IMG/VR virus record: IMGVR_UViG_3300044641_004328
Span: 1-26,422 of that record
Length of the DNA stretch: 26,422 nucleotides
Strand: one strand, 5' to 3'
From: a virus
The position numbers and the translations under genes were made by a program. The notes under the pieces were generated by a model. It was not told the origin of the DNA and searched no databases. It saw nothing but the letters and a program-made list of their open reading frames with translations. This document shows positions 2,153 to 22,900 of the stretch, piece by piece (the stretch's first letter is position 1; every line of letters begins with the position of its first letter).

Positions 2153-2948
2153 AAAACAAGTTCGTACATACAAAGACATTAAAAAACCGAAGCCTGGGCA
2201 AATCATGGTTTTTCCCCGGGATAATCGGCTTTACGAAACTGGTCCATTTGTTAATTCAGCAAGAACATTGCCAGACTGGTTTAAGGGTATTGATAAAAAT
2301 CGTGGTTCAATAAGATCTTGCTCTGGAACACTTGATTTCTTGCAATTAGGAATAACAGTTCCTATGTGGACAAATGCATATTTTACTCCAAACTTAGCTT
2401 CTCCAAGTCAATGGGATATCAGAATGGATCAAATGCCGTATTCAGAATCTTTTGGCAATGAACCATTCCCTTTCCATTCGGTAGGGAAATGCCCCATGAC
2501 TGAAGTACGGAGCATTGAGAAAAGTGCATTCCCAAAACTAATCAACCCCTGGTGTTTTGTAACAGCCCCTGGTTGGTCATCTATTGTCATTCATCCAATG
2601 TTTGAACCAAACAAGGATTGGACAACTGTTGCCTCAATCGTTCATACTGATTTTTATCATAACCTAAATGTTGTTTTAAATATCACAACAGAAAACCCAT
2701 TTACAATAAAAGCAGGAGCTCCTGTAATGCACATCATCCCTTTTAAAAGGAATATGGACACAGAAAAAATATTGATGGAAGACTCTGACTTGTTTAGATT
2801 CGTAAATGCTCGTGGGTTTGGAGACAATGCGGTTATACCGATTTCTAGCACAGGAGGGTCTTATAAGTCTTACCAAAGACAGATTGATGAAGGCATTGAG
2901 GCAAAAGAGTCTTCAAGAAATTTTTTTCAAAGATTAAAAAATGGCTAA
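2139..2948 (+). CDS. Conserved phage protein of unknown function, halogenase neighbour
   Basis: 269 residues, overlapping the halogenase by 14 bases and the next oxygenase by 8, so it is translated as part of the same cassette. The sequence has the look of a phage protein family I recall beside oxygenases and halogenases (possibly DUF6065, not checked). Its features are an N-terminal LPDWFK segment, a central CSGTLDFLQLGITVPMW stretch, a PWCFVTAPGWSSIVIHPMF strand pair, an acidic VHTDFYHNLNVVLN stretch and a conserved-looking PVMHIIPFKRN near 210-220. The Gly/Pro-rich beta pattern and GAPVMHIIPF would fit a cupin or jelly-roll-like fold, but I see no clear metal triad. No signal peptide or membrane segment. 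No function is assigned. Confidence 0.75.
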   Translation: MFGSKKQVRTYKDIKKPKPGQIMVFPRDNRLYETGPFVNSARTLPDWFKGIDKNRGSIRSCSGTLDFLQLGITVPMWTNAYFTPNLASPSQWDIRMDQMPYSESFGNEPFPFHSVGKCPMTEVRSIEKSAFPKLINPWCFVTAPGWSSIVIHPMFEPNKDWTTVASIVHTDFYHNLNVVLNITTENPFTIKAGAPVMHIIPFKRNMDTEKILMEDSDLFRFVNARGFGDNAVIPISSTGGSYKSYQRQIDEGIEAKESSRNFFQRLKNG

Positions 2949-3444
2949 AATTGAATATATAAAAAATGCAATTAGTGACTTCTATAAAGAAGAAATTCTT
3001 GCTGAGGTGAATAGAAGCTTTGACACTCCAATTTGGGTAAGTAGCCATAAGTGGAGTGAGGTGTTGACAAACAATATGCGCCCGATTCTTATGAGAAATC
3101 TTGAGAACGAAAAGGATACCCTCCATAATATTCTTTGTTCAAAGACAGAAACTTTGAGAGGGTTGACCCCAATGAACCCAGTACTTTACCTATGGGAGCC
3201 TGGTTCCCACATAGACTGGCATGACGATGCTGGGTGGACTGCAGCAGCGTCAATATATCTTACAACACAGGACAGGAGGGGTGGAGGTGCGTTTGCTTGG
3301 GAAGAAGATGATGGTACAATCAAAATGATTTTCCCAGAACAATGTTCTGCAATAATTCAAAGTGAAAACACAAATCATCATGTTACGATGATTCACCCAA
3401 CCAATCCTTCGTACAGAATGTCAATTCAAATATTCTACCGTTGA
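2941..3444 (+). CDS. Fe(II)/2-oxoglutarate oxygenase (second of three)
   Basis: 167 residues, short but complete for a 2OG oxygenase core. H94-x-D96 lies in HIDWHDDAGW, the glycine-rich turn GGGAFAWEEDD follows (114-124), and the distal His is H146 or H147 in NTNHHVTMI. R159 in SYRMSIQIFY is the expected 2-oxoglutarate-binding Arg. It begins 8 bases inside the preceding gene and ends 4 bases before the next open frame, consistent with one transcript. It differs enough from the first and third oxygenases in length and motif context to suggest separate origins rather than recent duplication. The substrate is unknown; proteins of this size in phages are commonly annotated only as 2OG-Fe(II) oxygenase. 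Confidence 0.85.
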   Translation: MAKIEYIKNAISDFYKEEILAEVNRSFDTPIWVSSHKWSEVLTNNMRPILMRNLENEKDTLHNILCSKTETLRGLTPMNPVLYLWEPGSHIDWHDDAGWTAAASIYLTTQDRRGGGAFAWEEDDGTIKMIFPEQCSAIIQSENTNHHVTMIHPTNPSYRMSIQIFYR

Positions 3445-4185: not shown

Positions 4186-4821
4186 ATGTCTTATACAAAT
4201 ACAAATAATTCAATTTGCTGGTACGACAATGCTGTTCCGAATGAACTGTGTGACGATCTAATTCAGTTATACGAGGCAAACAAGGATTACCACCTCCCTG
4301 GCAGAACGCTGGAAGGCGTTGCCGATGTAAAAATATCAACCGACATGGCTTTGTGCTCTCCAGAATTTGGAAACGATTCTGAAGATAAAATCCGGTTCAA
4401 GACAATTCTTGATGACGAACTTGCTGGTTTTGTGAATAATCGCATATACGAATACATCTCTGTGTTTGATTGGATAACCTCTTCGTTAAACACGTATCAC
4501 ACTAATTATGTGATTCAAAAATATCAAGCAATGAAGGGGCAGTACCAGGAACACATAGATGGAGCCTCGTGGAGCGAGCCATCAAGGGAGAGAATTTGCG
4601 GAATAATTGTTTATCTTAATGACGTAGAAGAAGGTGGTGGAACATATTTCCGTCATCAAAATACGTATATAGATGCCAAAAAAGGTCGTATTGCCATTTT
4701 CCCTGCAAACTGGACACACCCTCACACGGGGACAGTTCCTATTTCAAGTGATAAATATATTGTTACCAGCTTCTTGATGCCAACAGAGATAATCAGTGTT
4801 AAAGAAAAGTATGTTTTATGA
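4186..4821 (+). CDS. Fe(II)/2-oxoglutarate oxygenase (third of three)
   Basis: 211 residues, preceded by AGGAG at 4173-4177 that overlaps the previous stop codon and sits 8 bases before the ATG. Iron site: H123-x-D125 in YQEHIDGASW, then the turn EEGGGTYFRH (149-157) and FPANWTHPHTG with H178 or H180 as third ligand. K190 in SDKYIVTSF is the 2-oxoglutarate anchor. This layout is close to the oxygenases that are frequent in cyanophage and other aquatic phage genomes. The N-terminal 110 residues may carry substrate specificity. It overlaps the following membrane-protein gene by an ATGA junction. Substrate unknown. Confidence 0.88.
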   Translation: MSYTNTNNSICWYDNAVPNELCDDLIQLYEANKDYHLPGRTLEGVADVKISTDMALCSPEFGNDSEDKIRFKTILDDELAGFVNNRIYEYISVFDWITSSLNTYHTNYVIQKYQAMKGQYQEHIDGASWSEPSRERICGIIVYLNDVEEGGGTYFRHQNTYIDAKKGRIAIFPANWTHPHTGTVPISSDKYIVTSFLMPTEIISVKEKYVL

Positions 4822-5137: not shown

Positions 5138-6964
5138 GTGATATACTCAAGAAAATTAAGATTTAGAAAAGGATCGTGGTTAATACTCCCTGCTATCGTC
5201 TTGGGGTTGTTTTCATCACCAGTCAAAGCAGATACCTTCAGAACAGAAGGCGCTAATGACTTTTATTTTGAACTAGAGTCCGGCACAACCTTTACCGCAA
5301 GAGCGACTGCTCAAGTGTATGGCATTGACAGTCAGCTATGGTTATACGACAGCACTAATACGGTAGTCGCTGTAAATGATGACTATTTTGGCTTAGATTC
5401 CTATATTTCTTATAATGTCCAACAAAGCGGTGTTTATAGAATGAGAACGAGTGTTTGCTGCGGGGATCCAAATAGGTGGTACAACCAGTTCTATACCGTA
5501 GAGACAAGTTCTCAGCCAACAAATGTTCCGACAACGACTACAAGCACCACAACAACAACCAGTACAACTACGACCACAATTGCTCCGTACCTGAATGCTC
5601 CTCAAAACCTACAGGTTACTTCAACCAATGCAAGCAAGGTTTATCTAAGCTGGGATGCTCCGAGTCCATCAAACGTGGAGTTAGAGAGGTATGCCGTTTT
5701 TGGATCATGCAATAACTGGGTTACAGGCTTTGCAATCTCAACTACACAAACTGTTGCGGTCATAGAGGATCTTGATTCAGGGACCTCTTGTCAATTTAAA
5801 GTTCGTGCTGATAATGATACGTTGTCGGTTTATTCAAATTTTACTGAAGATGTAACAGGAGTCACTCAGACTACAACCACGACTTCTACGACTACAACAA
5901 CTACTACCGTGGTCCCAACCACCATGTTGCAAACAACAACAACGGAACTACCGAGTACCACAACAAGTTCAACAACACAGGCTCCTGTTGTTACTCAACC
6001 CGATGTTCCTTTGACAACCGTTGCCACAGCAACGACTCTTTCCTCCACAACCACCAGCAGACCCCCGCAAACAACGACCCTGCCATCAACAACAACTTCT
6101 TCAACGACAACCTCCACAACTATTGTTAACACAACTACGACGCTAGATATTCCTGAAGAAGCAAACGTGCTTGCAACAAGCATTTTGGCAAACTCAGATA
6201 ATCCGGCTGAACTGAGTGCTGCTGTTGACAACGCTGTTGCCTCAGTAGAATCCCCAGAAGAACTTGCTTCAATTGTATCATCGTTGCTTGACAAACCTCT
6301 TACTGATGACCAGTTTTCTGCTGTTATTGACGCTGTGTTTACCGAAAGTCTTACTACCGAAGAATTAAGTGCAGCCCTGGATGCTGTTTTTGCGGAACCA
6401 ATTTCTGATGAGAAGTTCACAGAAGTTCTGTCTGCAGTCTTGGATAATCCACTTGATGCCGAGCAGTTCGCTGCAGTTGTGGACATCCTTGAATCAGATT
6501 CTGTTTCGGAAGAACAGGTGTCTCTTGCTGTGGACAATATTTTGGAAAACGGTATTACGGATAGTCAAGCAACAGACTTAGCAACAAGTCCAAAAGTTCT
6601 GGAGAGCATTGACCCAGAACAGGCTTCCTCTGTATTTGAGCAGATACCCGTAAGTGATTTAACAACAGAAGAAGAAAAGGCGCTCGTTGAGGCAGTATCG
6701 GATGCTCCAACTGAAGTAAAAAATGCTTTTGAAAACACAATTGATATTTTTGGGGCAGGTCTTGATGAGTATGAAGCGGTTGGTTCCAGCGTCAATGTTG
6801 GCACCAGAAGAGTAGTTATCGCAGCAATAGGAGTAGTTACTTCTATAACAGTTGTTGTGCCTCCAGTCCCAACAGCACCAATTGGGTCAGGAGGAGGCTC
6901 TAGCAGTCCATCCGGCGGTTCTAATGCAGGAACCGGGGGTTCAAGGCAGCGAAGGCTGAAATAG
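5138..6964 (+). CDS. Secreted, membrane-anchored Thr-tract protein with FN3 domain and 17-residue helical repeats
   Basis: 608 residues from a GTG start. In order: a signal peptide (basic 1-11, hydrophobic core 13-27, likely cleavage after VKA at 31); a beta domain at about 32-123 resembling prepeptidase C-terminal domains (QLWLYDS... NVQQSGVYRMR) with a Cys pair at 107-108; a Thr tract at 132-147; a fibronectin type III domain at about 152-240 with Cys 191 and 218; a second Thr/Ser/Pro tract at 244-335; about eight 17-residue acidic helical repeats at 388-524; a hydrophobic segment at about 557-578 (RRVVIAAIGVVTSITVVV); and a Gly/Ser tail ending in RQRRLK. Proteins with this plan are, to my recollection, widespread in aquatic Actinobacteria, so host origin is likely. 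It is probably displayed on the cell surface. Receptor masking, adhesion and a virion role are all open. Confidence 0.85.
   Translation: MIYSRKLRFRKGSWLILPAIVLGLFSSPVKADTFRTEGANDFYFELESGTTFTARATAQVYGIDSQLWLYDSTNTVVAVNDDYFGLDSYISYNVQQSGVYRMRTSVCCGDPNRWYNQFYTVETSSQPTNVPTTTTSTTTTTSTTTTTIAPYLNAPQNLQVTSTNASKVYLSWDAPSPSNVELERYAVFGSCNNWVTGFAISTTQTVAVIEDLDSGTSCQFKVRADNDTLSVYSNFTEDVTGVTQTTTTTSTTTTTTTVVPTTMLQTTTTELPSTTTSSTTQAPVVTQPDVPLTTVATATTLSSTTTSRPPQTTTLPSTTTSSTTTSTTIVNTTTTLDIPEEANVLATSILANSDNPAELSAAVDNAVASVESPEELASIVSSLLDKPLTDDQFSAVIDAVFTESLTTEELSAALDAVFAEPISDEKFTEVLSAVLDNPLDAEQFAAVVDILESDSVSEEQVSLAVDNILENGITDSQATDLATSPKVLESIDPEQASSVFEQIPVSDLTTEEEKALVEAVSDAPTEVKNAFENTIDIFGAGLDEYEAVGSSVNVGTRRVVIAAIGVVTSITVVVPPVPTAPIGSGGGSSSPSGGSNAGTGGSRQRRLK
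6299..6709 (+). repeat. 17-residue (51-base) helical repeat block inside the secreted protein
   Basis: Successive units read LTDDQFSAVIDAVFTES, LTTEELSAALDAVFAEP, ISDEKFTEVLSAVLDNP, LDAEQFAAVVDILESDS and VSEEQVSLAVDNILENG, then three more diverged units, one of 18 residues. The pattern is hydrophobic-x-x-E-x-F-x-x-x-hydrophobic, as in short stacked helices. Weaker copies precede the block from about residue 356. Nucleotide identity between units is low, so the array is old rather than freshly expanded. Confidence 0.8.
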
Positions 6965-6990: not shown

Positions 6991-7164
6991 ATGTTTAAAA
7001 AATTAATTAATGAGATTCATGCTTTGGCATGGACACTTGGCGGAAGCGGAATTGTTCTTATAACGCTTTCTGGTCAAACAAGGTTTTGGGGTATATGGAT
7101 AACCATTGCCTCACTTGCAGTGCACCTTATCGGTGTGCTTATAAAAGGAGATAGTGATGAATAA
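6991..7164 (+). CDS. Small two-helix membrane protein, holin candidate
   Basis: A 57-codon frame starts MFKKLINEIHALAWTLGGSG and ends IKGDSDE. GGGAGGT-like purines (GGGAGG at 6979-6984) lie about 6 bases before the ATG, a good ribosome site. Two hydrophobic segments, about 12-27 and 33-52, are separated by a short polar turn (SGQTRF), with a basic N-terminus and acidic C-terminus, the layout of class II holins. The last codons overlap the next small membrane-protein gene by 8 bases. It opens a run of three small membrane proteins that ends at the endolysin, the main support for a lysis role. The sequence itself matches no holin family I can name. Confidence 0.72.
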   Translation: MFKKLINEIHALAWTLGGSGIVLITLSGQTRFWGIWITIASLAVHLIGVLIKGDSDE

Positions 7165-7393
7165 ACTTAATAACATTTTATTAAGAATACTTGCTGTATT
7201 TGGAGCATCTGGTCTTGGAGTGATTGGGGCTGGCGCTATTGCTGGAGTCAATCTTCCAAAAGCCATTTTTATGGCTGGAATTGGCGGAGTAGCCAAAGTT
7301 GTTGAGGGTCTAGCCAAAGCATTCCTTGATGATGGCAAACTTGATGATAGCGAAATAGCTGAAGTTTTCAACGGTAAAAATAAGACAGCCTAA
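7157..7393 (+). CDS. Small hydrophobic membrane protein, holin candidate
   Basis: 78 residues from the ATG at 7157, which has AAGGAG at 7145-7150, 6 bases upstream; a GTG one codon earlier is less likely. Residues 8-30 and 33-55 form two Gly/Ala-rich hydrophobic stretches (ILAVFGASGLGVIGAGAIAG, then AIFMAGIGGVAKVVEGLAKA), followed by an acidic soluble tail (DDGKLDDSEIAEVF). The tail looks loosely like an EF-hand or dockerin-type acidic loop but is too short to call. Position directly before the endolysin and size support a holin or holin regulator. Confidence 0.72.
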   Translation: MNKLNNILLRILAVFGASGLGVIGAGAIAGVNLPKAIFMAGIGGVAKVVEGLAKAFLDDGKLDDSEIAEVFNGKNKTA

Positions 7394-7408
7394 AAATACT
7401 GATTAAGG

Positions 7409-7414
7409 TATAAT
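7409..7414 (+). promoter_or_regulatory. Promoter -10 box before the third lysis gene
   Basis: TATAAT, a perfect consensus -10, lies in the 58-base gap between two lysis genes. A start near 7421 would give a leader of about 30 bases containing AAGGAG before the ATG at 7452. No clear -35 box is seen. An ATG overlapping the box at 7413 is in frame with the downstream gene but is not the likely start. Confidence 0.45.
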
Positions 7415-7451
7415 GTTGTATGTAGTGATTCAATGTCACAAAGGAGATTCT

Positions 7452-7643
7452 ATGATTAAAGTTTCGGAACAGAATAAAGCAATCCTTGCCTCTTATGCAA
7501 GAAGTGTGCTCGGCGCAGCTGTTGCAGTATATGCATCAACTGGTGATGTTAAGATGGCAGCAAATGCTTTGTGGGCAGCAGCTCTGCCTGTAATCATTCG
7601 CTTCCTTAACCCCAACGATGGGGCATTTGGGAGAACAAAATAA
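7452..7643 (+). CDS. Small membrane-associated protein, third holin-type candidate
   Basis: 63 residues from the ATG at 7452, chosen because AAGGAG at 7441-7446 precedes it by 5 bases; the longer frame from 7413 begins inside a promoter box. Residues about 10-26 (ILASYARSVLGAAVAVY) and 33-52 (MAANALWAAALPVIIRFL) are hydrophobic or amphipathic, and the C-terminus reads NPNDGAFGR. I have the impression of a recurrent small protein next to endolysins in actinophages, not verified. It overlaps the endolysin by one base (TAATG), so translation is coupled, which fits a holin-endolysin pair. Confidence 0.75.
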   Translation: MIKVSEQNKAILASYARSVLGAAVAVYASTGDVKMAANALWAAALPVIIRFLNPNDGAFGRTK

Positions 7644-8215
7644 TGACACCTAAGTACCCATACAAAAAAATGACTTTACCAAAAGAACTTGTCCCAATGA
7701 AAGACGAGACAGGTAAACTTACCCCAGAGATGCTTACAACTTCAGTTAATGGAGCAAAGTTTTGGCGCTGGGCAGGTATTGCTTTTAATCAAATGTTTAA
7801 TGATGCAAAAAAAGCAGGTTTGAATCTACAGAATATCGGAGACTTCCGTTCATATGATCAGCAATTGGCTATGTTCAAGGAAAGATATTCAACCACAGAT
7901 GGTGGTCGTAAGCCTACTGTCACAAGAACTTGGGATGGAAAGACTTGGTACCTTAAGCCAAAAATGAGTCCATCAAGCAGCCCTGGCAAGAGCAACCACG
8001 GTTTGGGTCTTGCAATTGACTTGAATGTTACTGATCCTAAAGTTCTAAACTGGCTGTGCGAAAATGCCCCAAGTTACGGGTTCTATCTCCAATCATCAGA
8101 TCCCAAGTCCCCAGAATTTGAGGCTTGGCATTGGCAGTATGTAGAAGGCGATGCTACTCCAGCAGCAGTTAAAGAGCGTTTTGAAAAAAATGAGGCAAAG
8201 AAGGCTGCTAAGTAA
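7643..8215 (+). CDS. Endolysin, M15-family (VanY-like) L,D- or D,D-peptidase
   Basis: 190 residues with a single zinc-peptidase domain. H119 in SNHGLGLAIDL and D126 of that motif are the first two zinc ligands; E160-A-W-H163 gives the general base and third ligand; R69 in GDFRSYDQQ is the usual substrate-binding position. M15 peptidases cut peptide cross-links of peptidoglycan and are common phage lysins. There is no signal peptide, so release would depend on a holin from the three membrane proteins directly upstream. The last 20 residues are Lys/Ala/Glu-rich and may aid wall binding. The stop overlaps the start of a cysteine-rich microprotein. Confidence 0.92.
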   Translation: MTPKYPYKKMTLPKELVPMKDETGKLTPEMLTTSVNGAKFWRWAGIAFNQMFNDAKKAGLNLQNIGDFRSYDQQLAMFKERYSTTDGGRKPTVTRTWDGKTWYLKPKMSPSSSPGKSNHGLGLAIDLNVTDPKVLNWLCENAPSYGFYLQSSDPKSPEFEAWHWQYVEGDATPAAVKERFEKNEAKKAAK

Positions 8216-8313
8216 TGGATGATGATTTAAACAAATCAAGAGTCAAGAGTTGCAGTTGTGGCTGTGAATGCACAGACCAGTGTGATTGTGGCTGTGAGGA
8301 TTGTGATTGCTAG
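8215..8313 (+). CDS. Cysteine-rich microprotein, metallothionein-like
   Basis: A 32-codon frame begins at the ATG of a TAATG junction with the endolysin. Nine of the last 20 residues are Cys, at positions 13, 15, 17, 19, 23, 25, 27, 30 and 32, arranged CxCxCxC-x3-CxCxC-x2-CxC with acidic and Gly spacers. The N-terminal 12 residues are polar (MDDDLNKSRVKS). Dense CxC patterns are what metallothioneins use to hold soft-metal clusters such as Zn or Cu(I). No aromatic residue is present, also typical of them. Its stop is followed at once by the ribosome site (AGAGGAA) of the next gene, so it fills the intergenic space exactly. No homologue is recognised. Translation is inferred from position and composition; metal binding is a hypothesis. 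Confidence 0.65.
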   Translation: MDDDLNKSRVKSCSCGCECTDQCDCGCEDCDC

Positions 8314-8323
8314 AGGAACATAA

Positions 8324-8659
8324 ATGGCTGGATTAAGAAATATAACTATTTATGCTGGAGATACTTACCTTCATGAATTGAGGATAAAAGACTCTGCTAA
8401 TGCTGCGATCAATATCACTTCGCATACATTTACTGGACAGATTAAGGTCGGGAAACTTGAATCAGAAAAGGTTGCGACGTTTACAGCAAACATTTCTAAT
8501 GGGGCAGCAGGTATTGTCCAATTCCTTTTGACTTCAAATGTGACTGCGAATATAACTCCGGGTACATATTATTATGATATTCAACAAATTAACGGAACAG
8601 TTGTCACGACTCTTTTGGGAGGTAAGGTAATTGTACAAGGAGATATAACCCGTGGCTGA
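8324..8659 (+). CDS. Virion protein with BppU-N-like beta domain
   Basis: 111 residues with AGAGGAA (8312-8318) before the ATG. The pattern is an early IYAGDTYLHELRIKD, a polar beta core, then ITPGTYYYDIQQINGTVVTTLLGGKVIVQGDITR, which resembles the N-terminal domain of phage baseplate upper proteins (BppU) and related Ig-like structural proteins: x-PGxYxYDI, then a strand ending in xVxxDxTR. Such domains sit in baseplate or fibre attachment proteins. Start of a fibre-type gene set; overlaps the next gene by 8 bases. Exact role unverified. Confidence 0.65.
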   Translation: MAGLRNITIYAGDTYLHELRIKDSANAAINITSHTFTGQIKVGKLESEKVATFTANISNGAAGIVQFLLTSNVTANITPGTYYYDIQQINGTVVTTLLGGKVIVQGDITRG

Positions 8660-10270: not shown

Positions 10271-11197
10271 ATGGATGAAGTTAAAATTGATACATCAAAA
10301 ACAATAACATTGACTCTACCTGTTGACCCAACATCAAACGCAGTATCGGTTTCTTTGTACCATGAATTTAACGATTTAGTCAGTGGTCCTACTGCTGCAA
10401 CAAGAGTTTCTACGGGTGTCTATACGATTACCTATGGTCAGCAAAACAGCGGTCATTATGTCCTTAATGCTGCCGGAAAATATAATGTCGTTTTTACATA
10501 TACGGTCTCTGGCACCCAGTACACAAAGAGCGAGTACATTAACGTCTACACACCCTATATGACCGCTACAGAGTTCTTTACGGTCCACCCTGAACTTCAG
10601 GAGGAAAAGGGAGCTTTATTTGATAGATACGAAAGGAGAGCTCGTAATATCATTAATACATATTGCGGTCAGTCTTTTGATTATTACCCAAATAAAACAA
10701 TCACCATAGAAGGGAATGGTCATTACAAACTGCACCTTCCTTTCCCGATTTACACCTTGACAAAAGTAACGCAGGATCCGGGTCGTGATTATGCTGAAAT
10801 TATTTTTGATTTGACAACGGATATTTCAAGAAATGTTGAGAAGGTAAGGCAACCACATAATTTTGAGTCTTCTTATTATATAAGATTTAGACCAGATACT
10901 TTGGATAGAAACAATACAGTTATTGTTCCCGTCAGATTTAGAGCAAAATCTGATTACAAGATTGAGGGTGATTTTGGCTGGAAGTATGTTCCAACAAATG
11001 TTCAACAGGCTGCTGATCTTATTATTGCGGATTTAATGAATGATGATTCTGATTACAGAAGACATGGTATTCATACTATTGACATGGATGTTGTTAAGAT
11101 GCAATTTAATCAGTCCTTCTACGAAACAACCGGAAATATTGAGGCAGACGTTCTCCTTATGGATTACACACTGTTCGTTATGGATTATGTCGTATAA
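10271..11197 (+). CDS. Head-tail connector (adaptor) protein with extra N-terminal beta domain
   Basis: 308 residues. Residues about 1-95 form an Ig-like beta domain (KTITLTLPVDPTSNAVSV ... KYNVVFTYTVSGTQYTKSEYINV). From about 97 on, YMTATEFFTVHPELQEEK then RYERRARNIINTYCGQSF is typical of the helical start of gp6/gp15-like adaptors, followed by a beta insertion and a C-terminal helix with QQAADLIIADLMNDDSDYRRHGI. Adaptors bind under the portal and begin the neck. Gene order (adaptor, stopper, neck, terminator, tube) supports the call. The stop overlaps the next start (TAATG). Confidence 0.75.
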   Translation: MDEVKIDTSKTITLTLPVDPTSNAVSVSLYHEFNDLVSGPTAATRVSTGVYTITYGQQNSGHYVLNAAGKYNVVFTYTVSGTQYTKSEYINVYTPYMTATEFFTVHPELQEEKGALFDRYERRARNIINTYCGQSFDYYPNKTITIEGNGHYKLHLPFPIYTLTKVTQDPGRDYAEIIFDLTTDISRNVEKVRQPHNFESSYYIRFRPDTLDRNNTVIVPVRFRAKSDYKIEGDFGWKYVPTNVQQAADLIIADLMNDDSDYRRHGIHTIDMDVVKMQFNQSFYETTGNIEADVLLMDYTLFVMDYVV

Positions 11198-13908: not shown

Positions 13909-16900
13909 ATGGCTGACGCAACTGGACATATTAGAGTAGAAACTATCATTGACGACTCGCTCAAGAGCGGGCTTAAAGGTGTCTCTGATAGCATATTCTT
14001 AGTCTCAGCCAGAATTAATGGTCTTAATCTTCTTACAAGAAGTTTGACAAATTCCAACTATGCGGTGTCGCAGTCGTTGAAGAGTGTGTCCTCAGCCCAA
14101 TCTGGAGTTGCCAAATCAGCAAGAGAATTGGCTGCAAATCAAGCAATTGTTGCTAATTATTTGAAACAAGTTCGCATTGAAGCAGATGCTGCTAAAACTG
14201 CATTGCACTCACATCAGATGACTCTTTCACAAACGTCTGCTAGTTACAAGCAAGCCGGTGCTGAGATTGCTTTCATTGATCAAAAATTAAGACATCTGAA
14301 TTCAACACAAAAAGTTGTTGATAGGACAATGCGAGCAAACGCAATGCAAACGATGTCTAAGCAATACAATAAGCAAGCAACTGAATTGAGTTATGTTGGT
14401 CAACGTCTCACGATGGGGTTGACACTTCCTCTTGTAACGCTCGGTCGCTTAGGGTTTAGTTCACTAAAGAAGTTGGACCAAGAACTTATTAGAACCAGAA
14501 AGCTTCTTGATGACACAGGTGATGGTGCTGACAACCTTGAAGGAAGAATGAAAGTTCTGGGGGAAAGACTTGATGACATCTCTTACAAATGGGGTGTATC
14601 AAGAGAGTTGCTACAGGGTCTTGCTGGAGACTTTGCTGAATTAGGCATATCCGATCCAAAAACATTGGCAAACCTCGTTCAGATTACAAATGAGATTGAA
14701 AAACTTGGTAACGTAGATATAACTGATGCCGGTAAATTGACTCAATCAATTTATCAAAACTTGTTGAGAATTAGAAGACTCCAGGGGATGAGTGTTACTG
14801 ATCCAATGGCTCTGCAGCAGATTACGCAAGAAGTTCGTGGAGCAATTGCACTATTCAACTATGCTGAAAACAAAACTTCTCTTTCGTTGAAGAACATTGC
14901 TGACGCATTCCCAGAAGTTTCTGGTGCTGCAACAAGCTTTGGTCTCAACATGGCTACAACAGCAGCATTGCTTGTTCCGATGGTTTCTGCTGGTTTTCAA
15001 GTAGGGGCATCAGCAAACTCAATCAAGGTTTCTTTACAGAAACTTGTTCTTCCAACAAAAGACACGAGAAAGTTGATAAACGCTCTCCGTCAAGAACTTG
15101 GACCAAACTTCAAGATGTCTGCTGACATTGGAGGAGAAGGTCTGCAAAACTTAGTTGATGGCTATATTGAGTTGGAAAAATCCCTATACAAAACGCAAGG
15201 TACGATGCAATTGTTTGGAAAGGCTTTTGGTGTTAGGCAGGGACCTAGAATGGAAGTTGCTATTCAACAAATGGCTGCTTTCCAGAAACAATTGAATAAT
15301 GCAAAAAGCAGTGAGACCCTAGTTCTGTCTACTTTGGAGCAAAGCATCAATGCTCAGTTAAGGAAGAACGGCTTAGAGGAAGTTAGTCTTAAAAATATTA
15401 AGGGTATTCAAGACTTGAACTCTGCTTCAACTGAGAGAAGTAAGGAGAATAATCTTGAGTACACTGAAAGAGCCAAGATTATTCAGAAAATACAGGCGCA
15501 AGAGGCTAAGCAACTTATAACGTCGGACAAGATGAGAAAAGCAATGCAGGATATATCAACTGAATCTGGAAAGATATTAATTGGTGGTGCTTTTGGTCAA
15601 GAAGAAACCGGCAGAACGATGGAAGAGGAATTAAGGAAGTCTGAGCAGTCACTGAACGTACAGGCTGGTCGGGTAAGAGAATCTGTTAAATCAATCGCTA
15701 GAGACTTTACAGTTGCTTTTGGTGAAATATTAAAAGTTGTTAGTCCAATCTTCATCAAGATTGCAAAAACAATTAGAGAGTTAAGTCCTGGTTTTAAAAA
15801 AGTAATTGGGCTTGCAGCAATTTTCTTAGTCACCATTGGACCAATAATTAGAATATTCTCTTTGTTCAAACAATCACAAAGCCTTGCAATGCTTGGTTTG
15901 GCAAAAGGTCTTACGGTAGGTCGTACACAGGCACAACAATTAGATGCGCAATTGTTGAAAACAAGCGATAGTCTTTTGCGATTAGGCAAGATCGGTAAAG
16001 TAACTCAGATAGGCGACAAAATTTTCCTTGAGGGCAAAGCAAAGACTAATAAGAAAGCAATGGAACTTGTTGGTCTTGAATCACAATATGACCCAACAGA
16101 CACAAGCCGTTCCTCACGTAGAACTGGTAAGAAAATTTCAAGTCTTAAAAAAGATTTAGGTATTGTACGGGGGGGAAGAACTAGCGACATGGATGTATCT
16201 GGCTTGATGCCAGGAACCTTAGACGCTCTTGGTTTAAACCCACTTGCTCAAAACAGACCAAAAAATTCAGCACAAATGAAAGCACAGCGTCTGGCAAATA
16301 TAGATATAGCCAAGCAATATTCTGCTCAATTAAAAGCTGCAGCAGCCAGTGCCGCTGCAGCAGCCAATGCCGTTGCTGTACCCGCTGTTGCTGTGCCGAC
16401 TGTTGCATCCACAGCGGGAGGTTCTGTATCTACTGTAGGTAGTGTTGCAACCACAGTCGGAAGTGTTGCAAACAAATCAATAAACCAAGGTCTCGGACAA
16501 GCATTGGGCAAGATAATTGCAATCTTGCAGGCAATAAAAAACTGTGCCTGCAATGGCAAGAACGTATTGGCTCCAAATCCACAGGGGATTCCGGGCGCAG
16601 GAGGCATATCACCAACTGGACCTCCTGCTGCAACCCCTACCCCTGCAAAACCTGCAGCAGCAAACGCACCGAATGCAACACCCGGAGGCATACCTAAGAG
16701 AACAACTAAAGGACCACTAAGAACGCCTGATGCACAAGCAGACGCTGTTAGTGGTCCTTCAATCTATACCAGCACAACGCCTGGAGGCATACCTAAGAGA
16801 ACAGTTAAAACTCCATCTGCACAACCTGCTGGGAAACCTATAGTTACAGAATTTAAAATTGGAGACAGAGATGCGACCTCTACTGTATACCCTGTCCAAA

Positions 16901-19900
16901 CTCCTGACCAAACTGAGAATGAAAGATTTCCTCATGGCTTACGTGTAGGTCCAGGACCTGAAGGATTTACAAGACTTGGAGACACTGTTAGAGAAACTGT
17001 TAACGATGTTGCTAACAAGATAGAAGCACAAGTACGTCAAATAGGTCCTGGACTACAAATAATTCCAAAATCTCAGGCGTTTGCAAGTATTGGAGACGCT
17101 GCTGAAAAAACTGTTGATGATGTTATTGAAAATGTAAACGAACAGGTTGCGGATGCAACTAAGTCTGCGCAGTCAACAATAAAGAGAATTACCAATACTG
17201 ACCTTTCCGAAGAGGCTTCGCAGCCAACTAGGGGAGACGGTTCTGGTACAGAGTCAAGAGCATCTAGGCGTAGCAAGCGTGACCTTGCCTCTGATGCTTC
17301 AATGTCTCAAAGTGAAAAACTTGATGTTCAATTCAAGAGAAGTAGTGCCTATCGCACTCAACTAAAAGATGCTAAAGAAGCAGCAGAGAGGGATATAAAA
17401 GATGCTCTTGAGAGTGCAGCAAATTCTGTTGCACAAGTTGTTGATGAAGTAGAAGTGGCATTAAATAAACTTGGTTCTGATGTAACCGCTGATGTAAAAG
17501 TAGTTGCCTCGGCAGGAAAAGCCGTTGAAGATAAAGTTGAGAAAGCAGTAGAGACGGCAAAGGATTCTACAAGAATCCCTAGAGAACTGCTAAACAGAAG
17601 TAGACCAGCTCCCCGTGTTAGCACTCAAGAAGAAATATCAGACATTGCTTTCTCTCTAGGTAACGAGACAGGGAGTACTCCCTTGCCTTCAACTAAAGCA
17701 GAAAAACTTGATGCCCAACGTATATTAGGATCTTCGGTACCGCCTGCTCCACCAGTTCGTGAAAACCAAGGACCAATTGGTTATCCAGCACAACTGTATG
17801 CAATGCTTAAAAAAGATATACAAGATAGAGGGCTTAGTCCAAACGAGGCTGCAATGACAGCTTTTAAGGCAACAATAGAGGGAATTAAGAGAAAGGCTGC
17901 TCGCAGCCAGCGTTCTAATCTTGGAACAGTATTTGGTATTGGCTTAGGAGAACAAAAAATCGGGGAAGATGGAGAGCCAATAGATACCGATGCAACGTAC
18001 CAATACAAGATTGTTGACAAAAAAGCCGAAAGAGAAAGAGCCTTGGCTATTGGGCGAGATGCCTCTCGTGCTTCTCGTGCTGTACCAGCACCAATTGACA
18101 CTTCTCCTCGCCCATTAGAACCTCAAGAGGTTGAAGACGTTGCTAATTTAAGAGAAGCACGAAGGAAGGCGGGGAGAGGCGACCTATCCGAAGCTGATAA
18201 AGATCTTGAACAAAAAGTTAATAAAAGAATACAAGACGACGCAAACGATCTTGCTAAAAGAAGAGAGGCTGCTGCGCTTCAGCAACAACGGGCTAGACGA
18301 GCAGAAGCGAGTGCTGGTTTAGTAGAAGGACAAAGACTACCTGCCTACGCTTCTGACGAACCGGATCCAAAAGTTCTAGAAGCTCAGCGACAGGCTAGAC
18401 CAGACCTCTTGGGTGAAAAAGCAAGGATGCAAATGCAAAGCGTAACCCAGCAAGCAGTTGCTGAAGTTAAGGAAGTGCAAGGTCTTGTCCATGAAACTAG
18501 AGCAAGATTTGAGTTAACAAAAGACAGTTTGATTGCAACATTCCGTGAATTAGGAATAAAACCACCTGACGACTTGTTGGCTGCTTCTGAATTTGCGGTA
18601 AAAATAAATCAAAAAACTGGTCAAAAAATAGTAGAAACCCTATCAAACCTTAAGAAAGCGGGTAAGATAGATCCCCAACAATTATACAAGAGAGGCGTGG
18701 TCAAAAGTCTTACTGGTGGAAAAGAGAAGGTAGCAGTTGATGATGCAATCGCTGCTGCTATGCCGAAAAAAACAGTTCTAGACAATCCAGAAAAGGCTAG
18801 GAGAGCAATCAGGATAACGTCAGCTTCTGTCGGCTTAAGGTATGGAGATAAAGACCCAAGTTATCCAGCAAGAATGCGTCGCATAATAGGCAGGTTTGGA
18901 AGTTTTGCTGGAGATGCAAAAGCCCAGGGTGAAAGTGTATTTAACAGGACTGCTGCCGCTATTAGTCAGATAAATATTAAAAGAGAAACAGATGCTGAAG
19001 AACGTAGAAGAAAATATGACGAAAGAGTAGCAGCAGGAGAAAGACCAACAAGCGAACCGAATCCTGCAGTTAAGATGCTCAACCCTGAGTCCCCAACAGA
19101 AGCAAGGGAACTAGCAAGAACAACAGGAAGGAGATACGTTGATATTGCCTATCCTAATATTAGGAGATCAAGAAAAAAAACCTTAGACGCAAGAAAAAAA
19201 GCTTTAGTCCAAACAACCCCAGAACAAGAAGCCGTAAAGCAAGCACAAAGGGAAGCGGATAGGGAAAGAGTTCGTCTTTCTACAGCTGCTATAGCAGCAG
19301 GGGAAGTGGAGACAAGAGGTCGCAAAGAAAAAAGAGATCAGGTAGTAGCAGAAGCCATTCAGAAACAAAATGAAGAAAAAGCCATACGTGCAGCAGAAAA
19401 AGCTGCCAAGGAAGCAGATAAGGCAGCTGAGAAGGCAAGCAAGACAGGTCCAAGACCAGTCACCGTTAAGACTTTTGAAGATCTCCCTGCGTTGATTCAA
19501 AACGACCCAGAATCCGCAAGTAAAAGAATGGAGGTCATGCGAGCATCATTGCCAGAGGCTCCTGTTATTCCAAAGCCCAGTTTAGAACCCCCTGCTCGTA
19601 TTGCCGAGGGGCGAAGAGCGCTGGTTATTTCGGATCTCAAGAAGCGGGTCAGGGATGCTGCAGAAAAAGCAAAAAGAGAAGGAAAGAAACCTGATGACAG
19701 CCTTAAAGGTCTTAAAGGAAAAGAGTTGGAAGATGCATTGCTGGCTCAATATGAGGAAAGTCAAAAGAAAAAAAGAGAAGAAGCCCTGGAGCGTATGGAG
19801 AAAAAACGTGCTGACGCTGCAGCAGGCGGAAGCGCCCCAGACATATCCGAAAGTAAGAGACCTAAATCGCTAAGTGCAGCAGCAGCATCTGGTCCAACGA

Positions 19901-22900
19901 TGCTCAATGCTCTTAACCAGCAACTTGCTACAACGCTTCAAATGCCTACACAAATGCTTGATTCATTTGTTGAAACACTTAAGGTTAAAGGTGGTGGACT
20001 TGCCGAACTTGCAACTGGAACAGAATCGGCATTGCAACAAGAACTTGCTCTATTGCAAAAAGCTCTAGCAGATGTTGGTTTAACAGTTCAAAAGGCAATT
20101 CAGGATCCTATAGATGCATATGCAAAACTTGGAAAGAATAAAGCATTTACTAAAGGTGGTGTCAATGAAGTGTTCCAACGCCTTGTCTTGTTCCAGAAGA
20201 CAATCAATGAACAGATTGAGCAAGGTCTTGATGTAACTTCGGCTATTGATGCTGCCAAAGCAAAAACTATTTCACGATTCCAGAAAACAGGTGCACCAGA
20301 AGGCGCACCAGCAACAGGAACTCCTTCTACTGCAGGAACCACTACTCCTACTGGTGGTAAGAGTGCTAAGGGATCATTAACTGCTGGTATGGCAAACCCT
20401 GAAATCAAAGTTGTTGCAGATCAACTTGCGTCAAGGATTAGAGCCGGAGAAAAGATTGAGATTGATTTCTATGCTGAAAAAGTAAAACTTGTTGAGTACC
20501 TGTCTAGAACATTTAATGCAAAAGGAAGAGGCAAAGGCAAACAAGAGGTTATTGTCCCGGAATTAATTAAAGCAATTGATAAGTTCCAAGAGTCTCTAGG
20601 CGGAGTTGTTGAAGAAGCAGTCGTTTCTCTTAAAGTAGCAGAGACTGCCGTTGAAGCAACTCCTTCTACAGTCCCGACAGTTGCTGATGATGTTGTTGTC
20701 GGCGTTAAACAATTGGATCAGGCAGTTAAGAACAATATTCAAAAGATTATTGCAGTACAAGCCTCAGCGTATCTGGGTGTTCAGCAAGCACAGCAAGGGT
20801 TGAGTAATTTAGGTACGTCAGTAAAGAGACCAGCACCAACAACTCAAGCTTCTCCTGGAGGCAAACTTGATGTAACGCCTTACGTTGGTGGTGGTTTCGG
20901 TGCAGTTGCAGCAGCGGTTGCAGCAGCAAAACAGTCTGCACAGACTCCAACACCAACTGCCTCTGCAGTACCTAAATCTTATGCCCAGTTCTACGCAAAT
21001 AGAGGTATTGAGGAGCCAGTCAAGAGGTCAAGAATTAAAGAGGCAATGGCATCAGGTAAAGAACGTGTTGGTGCATTGGTCAGTAAAGCAAGGTCTATAC
21101 CAATGGGTCGGGGTACGGAACCCCTCTTCCCAGCACAACTTGCTTCTCCTGTTAAATCATGGACAGCTGCATATGCCAAATGGGGTGCAGAGAAACTCAA
21201 GAACCCAGCACCTGTACCGAAGTCTTGGAAAACAGCATACGAGAAATGGGGTGCAGAGAAACTCAAGAATCCAGCGCCTGTACCAAAGTCATGGGCAACT
21301 GCTTATGAAAAATGGGGTATCCAAGGTCTCAAGAAACCACCAGTTCTCCAGACAGCAATGCAAGGAGTAAAAAAGGTTGCAAAAGTTGCTGGGAAAGAAG
21401 CGCTATCTGCGACAGTGCTGGGTCCTTTCTATGGAATATCTAAAGTTGTAAAAGCATTGAAGGCTGTGAATCAAGAGATTGATGCAGGATCAAATCGTTT
21501 TACGCAAAAAGTATTAAAGCTTAAAAAGGGAATCACGTTCCTTGGATACACAGTTGCGGATGAACTAAACAAAGTTGCTGGTAAACCTATTGCTGACAAG
21601 TTCCGTTCAGCCAATGCAAAAATGGGCGGGACAACAAGACTTAGAACTGCAAGAAACGCTGTTGGCATGGGTGCGGGAGCCTTTGCGGGGTTGGCTGCAA
21701 GCCCTCTGCTTGTTCCTGCAGCGATGGTTGCTGGCACAGTCGGTCTTGGTAAGGGGGCAGCAAGTCTCGGTAGAAAAGTAATAGGTTCTGATAAAGCACA
21801 GAATTTCTTGCAGAATACAAGAACGGGTCAGGATGTCCAGAAAGGTCTAGATCTTGTTGCTAGTACTGTCAACAAGGGTGGTGCTTTAATTCTGCAAGCC
21901 GGACAATCAATTCAGAATAAAGTAATGCCAGTTTGGGAATCAACAAAACAAGTTGGTATTGCTATTGGTCAGGCAGTAGCCCATCCCGTAGTTGCTCTCC
22001 AGGATGCTGGGAGAAAAGTAACAAATGCATTACTAGGTCTTGGGAAAAGTGTACTCAAAGACACTAAGGATTTCACAGTGAAGACAGCCAAATCTATTAA
22101 AGAAAGATTGGTCGGTGGAACTACTACTTACGACACTCAACTTGGAACAGTCACAAAGAGTGGTGGAATCTTTAAAGCAGATCAGACGTTGGACCAGTCA
22201 ACGGGTGTCACAACAAAGGGTCGTGGATTCTTTGGCAAAGGTATTGCTGGAGCAGCATCTGGAGTAAAGAGGGGCGTTGGTGGTGTAAAGAAAGGCATCG
22301 GTGGAGCGGTTAGTGGTGGTGCTGGTATGGCACAGAATGCTTTGTCAATGGTGGTTCCTCCTCAGTTCCAGTTCCTGACAATGCTGTTCCCTCAATTGAT
22401 TAAGTTCGCACAAAGATTTACAAAAACATTTAGCTTAATTACGATTGTTGTTCTAGCAGCCGTTGGGGTATTCAAGTTCCTGCAATCAACATTTGGTGAA
22501 TGGAAGGATTCTGCTGGACCATTCTTGACCAACTTTAAGGCAGCATGGACAGCGCTTGCTGGAATATTTACAACAGTGAAAATTGCTCTTTCCGATTTCT
22601 TTAAATCTTTCTTTGGAGGTAGCCAAAAGAGTTCTGGCTCAATGCAAGATATGGGCAAGAAGATACTCAAGGTCTCCGAGATTGTTCGGGACTTTGCTAT
22701 CAAATTTGTACGTTTCTTTAACTTAACAATAAAGCCAGCCCTCTATTCCTTCCTTTCTGGTTTGAAACTCGTTATTCAGGGTGCAATCAAAATCTTTGGT
22801 GGAATATTTAATGTCATAAAGGGCATTGTGCAAAAGTTCCAAGGGCAGGGTGACGAAGCTGGAAAGAGTTTCAGCAAAGGCTTTGAGATGATTAAGTCTG

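Follow-up and report, generated by a model that had tools for sequence, protein, structure and literature searches.

Genes and signals around the microgene

The analyzed window is an IMG/VR virus record of 26,422 bases and represents a fragment of a tailed phage. The microgene and its surrounding features are listed in Table 1. The microgene ATG at 8215 overlaps the TAA stop codon of the endolysin (8213–8215), and the final base of its TAG stop codon (8311–8313) starts the GAGGA ribosome site of the following gene, whose ATG lies at 8324. The encoded microprotein contains nine cysteines in 20 residues, spaced CxCxCxC-x3-CxCxC-x2-CxC, and zero aromatic residues. The nine-cysteine array is far beyond chance. 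The first-pass annotation had described this frame with its cysteine spacing, the TAATG overlap, and an end just before the next ribosome site, and all of these were confirmed on the sequence (ORF 8215–8313, plus strand). The adjoining lysin, which had been called zinc-dependent, was placed in a zinc peptidase family by its Pfam match. Scanning the window for Rfam families and tRNAs gave no hits.

Table 1. Features of the microgene region in the window
Feature	Position	Strand	Description and evidence
Microgene	8215..8313	+	32 aa, MDDDLNKSRVKSCSCGCECTDQCDCGCEDCDC; sequence and homologues
Nine-cysteine array	8251..8310	+	20 residues; invariant across all homologues
TAATG stop-start overlap with endolysin	8213..8217	+	Translational coupling; sequence; TGATG/TAATG likewise in L122, L155, L195, L210, L225, L253, and L256
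AGAAGG	8199..8204	+	Possible ribosome-binding site, 10 nt 5′ of microgene ATG, within the lysin gene; sequence
Endolysin	7643..8215	+	VanY/M15 zinc D-Ala-D-Ala carboxypeptidase family; PF02557, E 2.9e-18
LtfC-like structural protein	8324..8659	+	phrog_1084, E 1.4e-22; Pfam LtfC under cut-off
Head-tail adaptor	10271..11197	+	phrog_442
Promoter-like -10, AGGTATAATG	7406..7415	+	5′ of the holin-like/lysin/microgene gene run; alone not beyond chance
Holin-like hydrophobic small protein	7154..7393	+	Lysis cassette; phrog_26427, E 4.4e-21; weak holin match, E 0.039
Second holin-like small protein	7452..7643	+	Weak holin match, E 0.03
Microprotein peptide			SCSCGCECTDQCDCGCEDCDC

A GGTATAATG-type box, possibly a phage promoter, was located before the lysis genes of the window (7406–7415) and directly before the microgene in L206, L218, L239, and L245. 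The phrog_26427 label of the 79-aa holin-like protein (7154–7393), 'nuclease', looks doubtful. Elsewhere in the window, a tryptophan-halogenase family gene (PF04820, E 1.5e-95) at 656–2152 and 2OG-Fe(II) oxygenases, two clear and one weak, at 81–668, 2941–3444, and 4186–4821 form an oxidative cluster that is unusual for a phage. The gene at 5138–6964 encodes a Thr-rich protein that contains fn3, long TTTTTST repeats, and a tail rich in Gly, and similar proteins lie directly 5′ of the microgene in relatives (L218, L239, L245, and L266). The region 13909–25893 encodes a tape measure protein of 3994 aa (PhageMin_Tail) with a long low-complexity, Lys/Ala-rich middle.

Recovery and conservation of the microprotein family

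DNA patterns back-translated from the cysteine codons were scanned over 2.9 million IMG/VR contigs. With the two CGC glycines partly fixed, the pattern returned 73 stretches, and the same microprotein was present in about 64 viral contigs with 32 distinct cores; many of these contigs are near-identical copies, and the effective number is closer to 32 distinct proteins. The remaining pattern matches were repeats or low-complexity frames. When the Gly positions were omitted, the matches listed were dominated by low-complexity repeats with CCC runs. An independent search for the LtfC-like neighbor gave a sole distant match, IMGVR_UViG_3300009163_000758 (67% identity), which carries the microgene directly upstream and also belongs to the cysteine-pattern set. 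The proposal of a real hidden microprotein that gene finders usually miss is strongly supported.

A nine-cysteine pattern can only return nine cysteines, and two less biased half-array scans were therefore made. With R-x-K and the first four cysteines fixed, 52 stretches were obtained, all of them already in the known set, and the five free cysteines were kept in 52/52. With the last five cysteines, Q, and the stop codon fixed, the four free cysteines were kept in 24/24 stretches. Furthermore, 80 loci were fetched through the LtfC-like gene alone. The microgene was directly upstream in 35 of these, always with nine cysteines, and was missing from that place in the other 45, although at least four of the latter contigs carry it elsewhere. 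An HMM run over six-frame ORFs of all fetched loci separated true copies (E ≤2.5e-6) from the next best match (0.48), and revealed no decayed or degenerate copies among these loci, including the LtfC-anchored ones not chosen for cysteines.

The expectation that the microprotein would follow endolysins in related contigs held only in part: it was found in the contigs described above, but it was missing after 88%-identical lysins in L003, L004, L005, and L017, where a different small ORF occupies the place. These four loci represent loss or absence of the microgene, not frame decay; decay of the frame or of the cysteines, or internal stop codons in close relatives, would have spoken against the microprotein, and no such copies were seen. 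Two contigs nearly identical to the window have the microgene and are uninformative on selection. In L003, L004, L005, L006, L008, L017, and L022, which have no microgene there, the lysin is followed by a conserved ORF whose product has a hydrophobic N-terminus and a charged tail (ENKADHNFVVDKIENLGK...). Against named phages, tblastn of the microprotein gave no match, the low-complexity filter probably masking the query, and blastn yielded a weak partial hit in Cronobacter phage GAP31 (E 0.03), located within a hypothetical gene of 276 bases.

The members are 25–33 aa long, and nine cysteines make up 27–36% of their residues. The consensus is a short N-terminus ending in [RK]-x-K-x, followed by C-x-C-[G/D]-C-x-C-x-x-[QHY]-C-x-C-G-C-[ED]-x-C-x-C-stop; a few members deviate at bracketed positions. 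In many members, the leader consists of only about five residues (MRNKS). The microprotein is short and polar, without a signal peptide or transmembrane stretch. A variant with a tenth cysteine (CGCGCECTECCECGCEECDC) occurs in L208, L220, L223, L228, and L230. Each of ten contigs of 58–106 kb contains a single copy of the microgene.

Three start contexts were observed: a TAATG/TGATG overlap with the gene before it, which is the arrangement of the window; a strong AGGAG-type SD; and a TATAAT box 27–71 nt 5′ of the first Cys codon, mostly accompanied by an SD. These contexts fit real genes.

Both TGT and TGC occur at each of the nine Cys codons, and the residue is always Cys. Across 32 sequences, invariance extends beyond the nine cysteines to G26 and to K11 (window numbering), which precedes the first Cys by two residues; of the glycines in the CGC motifs, one is invariant and one nearly so. 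The residues between the cysteines are mostly acidic (Asp/Glu), and most of them vary. Non-Cys codons have a dN/dS of about 0.28, with synonymous change near saturation, and pS over all codons was 0.82 vs a pN of 0.19. This pattern reflects purifying selection on a protein. The microgene is a conserved protein-coding gene with every cysteine under purifying selection, and the selection on Cys codons that had been named as a check of the microprotein was found.

Gene neighborhood, lineage, and host

The gene upstream of the microgene is usually an endolysin, of several kinds. A VanY lysin adjoins it in the window and in L253, and in L122 and many others the lysin is of an M15-like family, which has no Pfam match and was recognized by eye from its HATGRAxD and WxHxE motifs. 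In L109, the neighbor is an Rv2525c-like glycoside hydrolase lysin with a peptidoglycan-binding domain. Between lysin and microgene, an SNase-type nuclease or a relative is inserted in L129, L206, and L237 (Pfam match run on L129 only), and a long Thr- or Gly-rich adhesin-like protein in L218 and L245. Downstream lies either the LtfC-like gene, which in the anchor scan was the synteny anchor immediately 3′ of the microgene in many members, or a head-tail adaptor homologous to that of the window. The contigs of L286, L287, and L303 carry the microgene before the adaptor (L258, L227, and L256) and not at the LtfC gene. On the LtfC tree, presence at the LtfC gene takes two changes vs 14 in shuffles. 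Because the lysin types vary, the positions shift, and the LtfC tree needs few changes, the microgene is tied not to one lysin but to the place where the lysis and structural modules meet, and it is inherited with the phage lineage.

These neighbors bear on the earlier suggestion that the microprotein buffers metal for the zinc lysin. It would then keep the M15 lysin inactive up to the time of lysis by holding or stripping its zinc, or it would load the lysin with zinc. In the window and many relatives, the microgene is coupled to the lysin by a stop-start overlap, which is consistent with such control, and most neighboring lysins have M15-type HxxGxAxD...WxHxE motifs (by eye). However, the microgene stays while the lysin family changes, as in L109; the nuclease or adhesin-like genes intervene in the five loci named above; and VanY lysins occur without a microgene in L003–L005, L329, and L335. 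The microgene is found neither only with M15 zinc lysins nor always beside them. A role in lysin zinc is possible, but the neighbor survey contradicts it as a general rule; the suggestion was not supported, and we regard this explanation as unlikely.

The head-tail adaptor shares about 25–29% identity with homologues of the large Streptomyces phages (Stanwilliamsviridae), and the window lysin is related to those of Microbacterium and other actinobacterial phages. Because of these two relationships, the host is likely to belong to the Actinobacteria. The microgene is absent from both named large phages that were checked, DSL-LC01 and Daubenski; the latter, the one member of Stanwilliamsviridae checked, differs in this from the window.

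Cellular copies were sought in 84,980 bacterial and archaeal genomes with the exact nine-cysteine pattern, which also required the glycines and an acidic residue and would miss more diverged relatives, and no true match was obtained; all three matches fell in long frames that were of low complexity or unrelated for other reasons. Among 396 genomes of the Streptomyces phylum, no true copy was detected, and only partial matches with an E of 0.008 or weaker appeared.

Metallothionein-like anatomy and alternative readings

With nine thiols packed into 20 residues and no hydrophobic core, the microprotein has the signature of a metal-thiolate peptide and would be expected to bind metal. The family shows the features of metallothioneins in the broad sense: low mass, a Cys content of about 20–30% or more, CxC motifs, few aromatics, and cysteines conserved under purifying selection. 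One reading of the array is [CxC]x[CxC]x3Cx[CxC]x2[CxC] (n = 1,3,1,2), and its overlapping CxC runs permit others. Gastropod beta1 domains follow this generic nine-cysteine formula and coordinate three divalent ions in an M3(SCys)9 arrangement (PMC10235030). Nine-cysteine beta and beta1 domains (vertebrate beta, gastropod beta1) resemble the phage protein in having nine cysteines in about 20–30 residues and four CxC plus a lone Cys that can be arranged in the beta1 order, with M3Cys9 predicted. In contrast, the phage protein is viral and single-domain, has shorter spacers (1–3) that are acidic instead of Lys/Ser, and has no detected homology to them. The agreement with the gastropod beta1 order is likely to reflect convergence, not homology. 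The Asp/Glu residues between the cysteines, in place of the Lys/Ser of animal metallothioneins, count against the metallothionein reading.

The fungal Cu-metallothioneins of Neurospora and Agaricus have 26 aa and 7 Cys (PMC4755600). They are alike in size, CxC density, and being a minimal thionein of one domain, whereas they are copper-thioneins of cellular genes with the spacing CxCx5CxCx3CxCx2C. Bacterial metallothioneins (SmtA/BmtA, PF02069; MymT) share the prokaryotic setting and presumed thiolate metal binding. SmtA (56 aa) uses eight Cys and two His to coordinate three Zn (PMC12193353); compared with the SmtA/BmtA family, the phage protein is shorter and mostly lacks His. Phytochelatins, (gamma-Glu-Cys)n-Gly, and synthetic (Glu-Cys)n peptides likewise alternate an acidic residue with Cys (CECGCEC...), but phytochelatins are made by an enzyme, not the ribosome, and have no fixed array.

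The microprotein had no match in Pfam, NCBIfam, PHROG, or PDB. With control sequences run alongside, PF02069 (SmtA/BmtA) gave no match at E up to 10 (SmtA control, 4.5e-21), PF00131 (vertebrate metallothionein) gave none (human MT2 control, 5.6e-23), and the 26-aa Neurospora metallothionein control matched no Pfam family either. Because a genuine Neurospora metallothionein matches none, library silence is expected for so short a protein and is a weak counter-argument. The microprotein is metallothionein-like in anatomy and, by these profile searches, not a member of PF00131 or PF02069. An AlphaFold2 model was of low confidence (pLDDT 68, pTM 0.26) and uninformative. No metal-responsive regulation was found, which also counts against the metallothionein reading, as does the lack of the gene at the LtfC place in 45 of 80 loci.

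A thiol redox or disulfide peptide, either a small virion or secreted protein with its cysteines in disulfides or an oxidant sink, is quite improbable. The microgene heads a structural gene block and its product is Cys-rich, as such a peptide would be; however, nearly every member keeps an odd number of cysteines (the L208 group has ten), metal thiolates typically show such CxC runs, and the short polar sequence has neither a signal peptide nor a transmembrane stretch. Very little probability was given to a metal-thiolate adaptor that inhibits or redirects a host protein for takeover or counter-defence, with the metal only for folding. The conserved R/K-x-K before the array, the two CGC motifs, the [QH] before the fifth Cys, and the C-terminal CxC would suit it, but its surface would be very small, most inter-Cys residues vary, and the microgene lies beside lysis and structural genes, not in an early region. 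A RiPP-like precursor of a modified peptide, to which a short Cys-rich product could point, was rejected: the leader of about five residues is too short, conservation lies in the tail and not in the leader, and no shared modifying enzyme lies alongside. A chance open frame or a conserved DNA/RNA element, as suggested by the short ORF and by the low-complexity CCC-run noise of the scans, was refuted by the codon pattern with free wobble and fixed amino acids, dN/dS, the start signals, and the half-array scans.

The microgene is a genuine phage gene, probably late-expressed, and probably encodes a minimal metallothionein-like protein. The peptide, too small for a hydrophobic core, would fold around thiolate-bound d10 metal ions. 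A beta1-like array order and equally short fungal thioneins lead us to predict a cluster of three Zn(II) or Cd(II) as M3Cys9 most likely, or of several Cu(I), and a late buffer or sink. Presumably made together with the lysis and virion genes, the microprotein may soak up or pass on Zn/Cu while infected cells are dismantled, and free metal would stay low during phage late-protein synthesis and assembly. Giving zinc to an M15 lysin, or keeping it from one, would be one possible target, which is not established. We infer metal binding, the identity of the metal, the late timing, and the purpose. The wider proposal is evenly balanced: the members would form a phage-restricted minimal metallothionein family of 25–33 residues, for which no ancestor in cells was found, and a group of aquatic phages that probably infect Actinobacteria would use it to take over host zinc/copper buffering late in infection.

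The openly accessible literature, which leaves out most subscription journals, yielded no article describing a phage metallothionein. A metallothionein-like protein has reportedly been described from a marine Vibrio phage; a literature search for it found nothing. Short back-translated patterns recover families that are missed by BLAST masking and gene callers, and the microprotein is among the smallest natural thionein candidates for metal-cluster chemistry. Many auxiliary genes have already been described in phages. The family makes metal buffering in infected cells directly testable, and a dedicated nine-cysteine gene, intact across diverse phages and not found in the cellular genomes scanned, suggests that thiol-bound metal control is worthwhile during infection.
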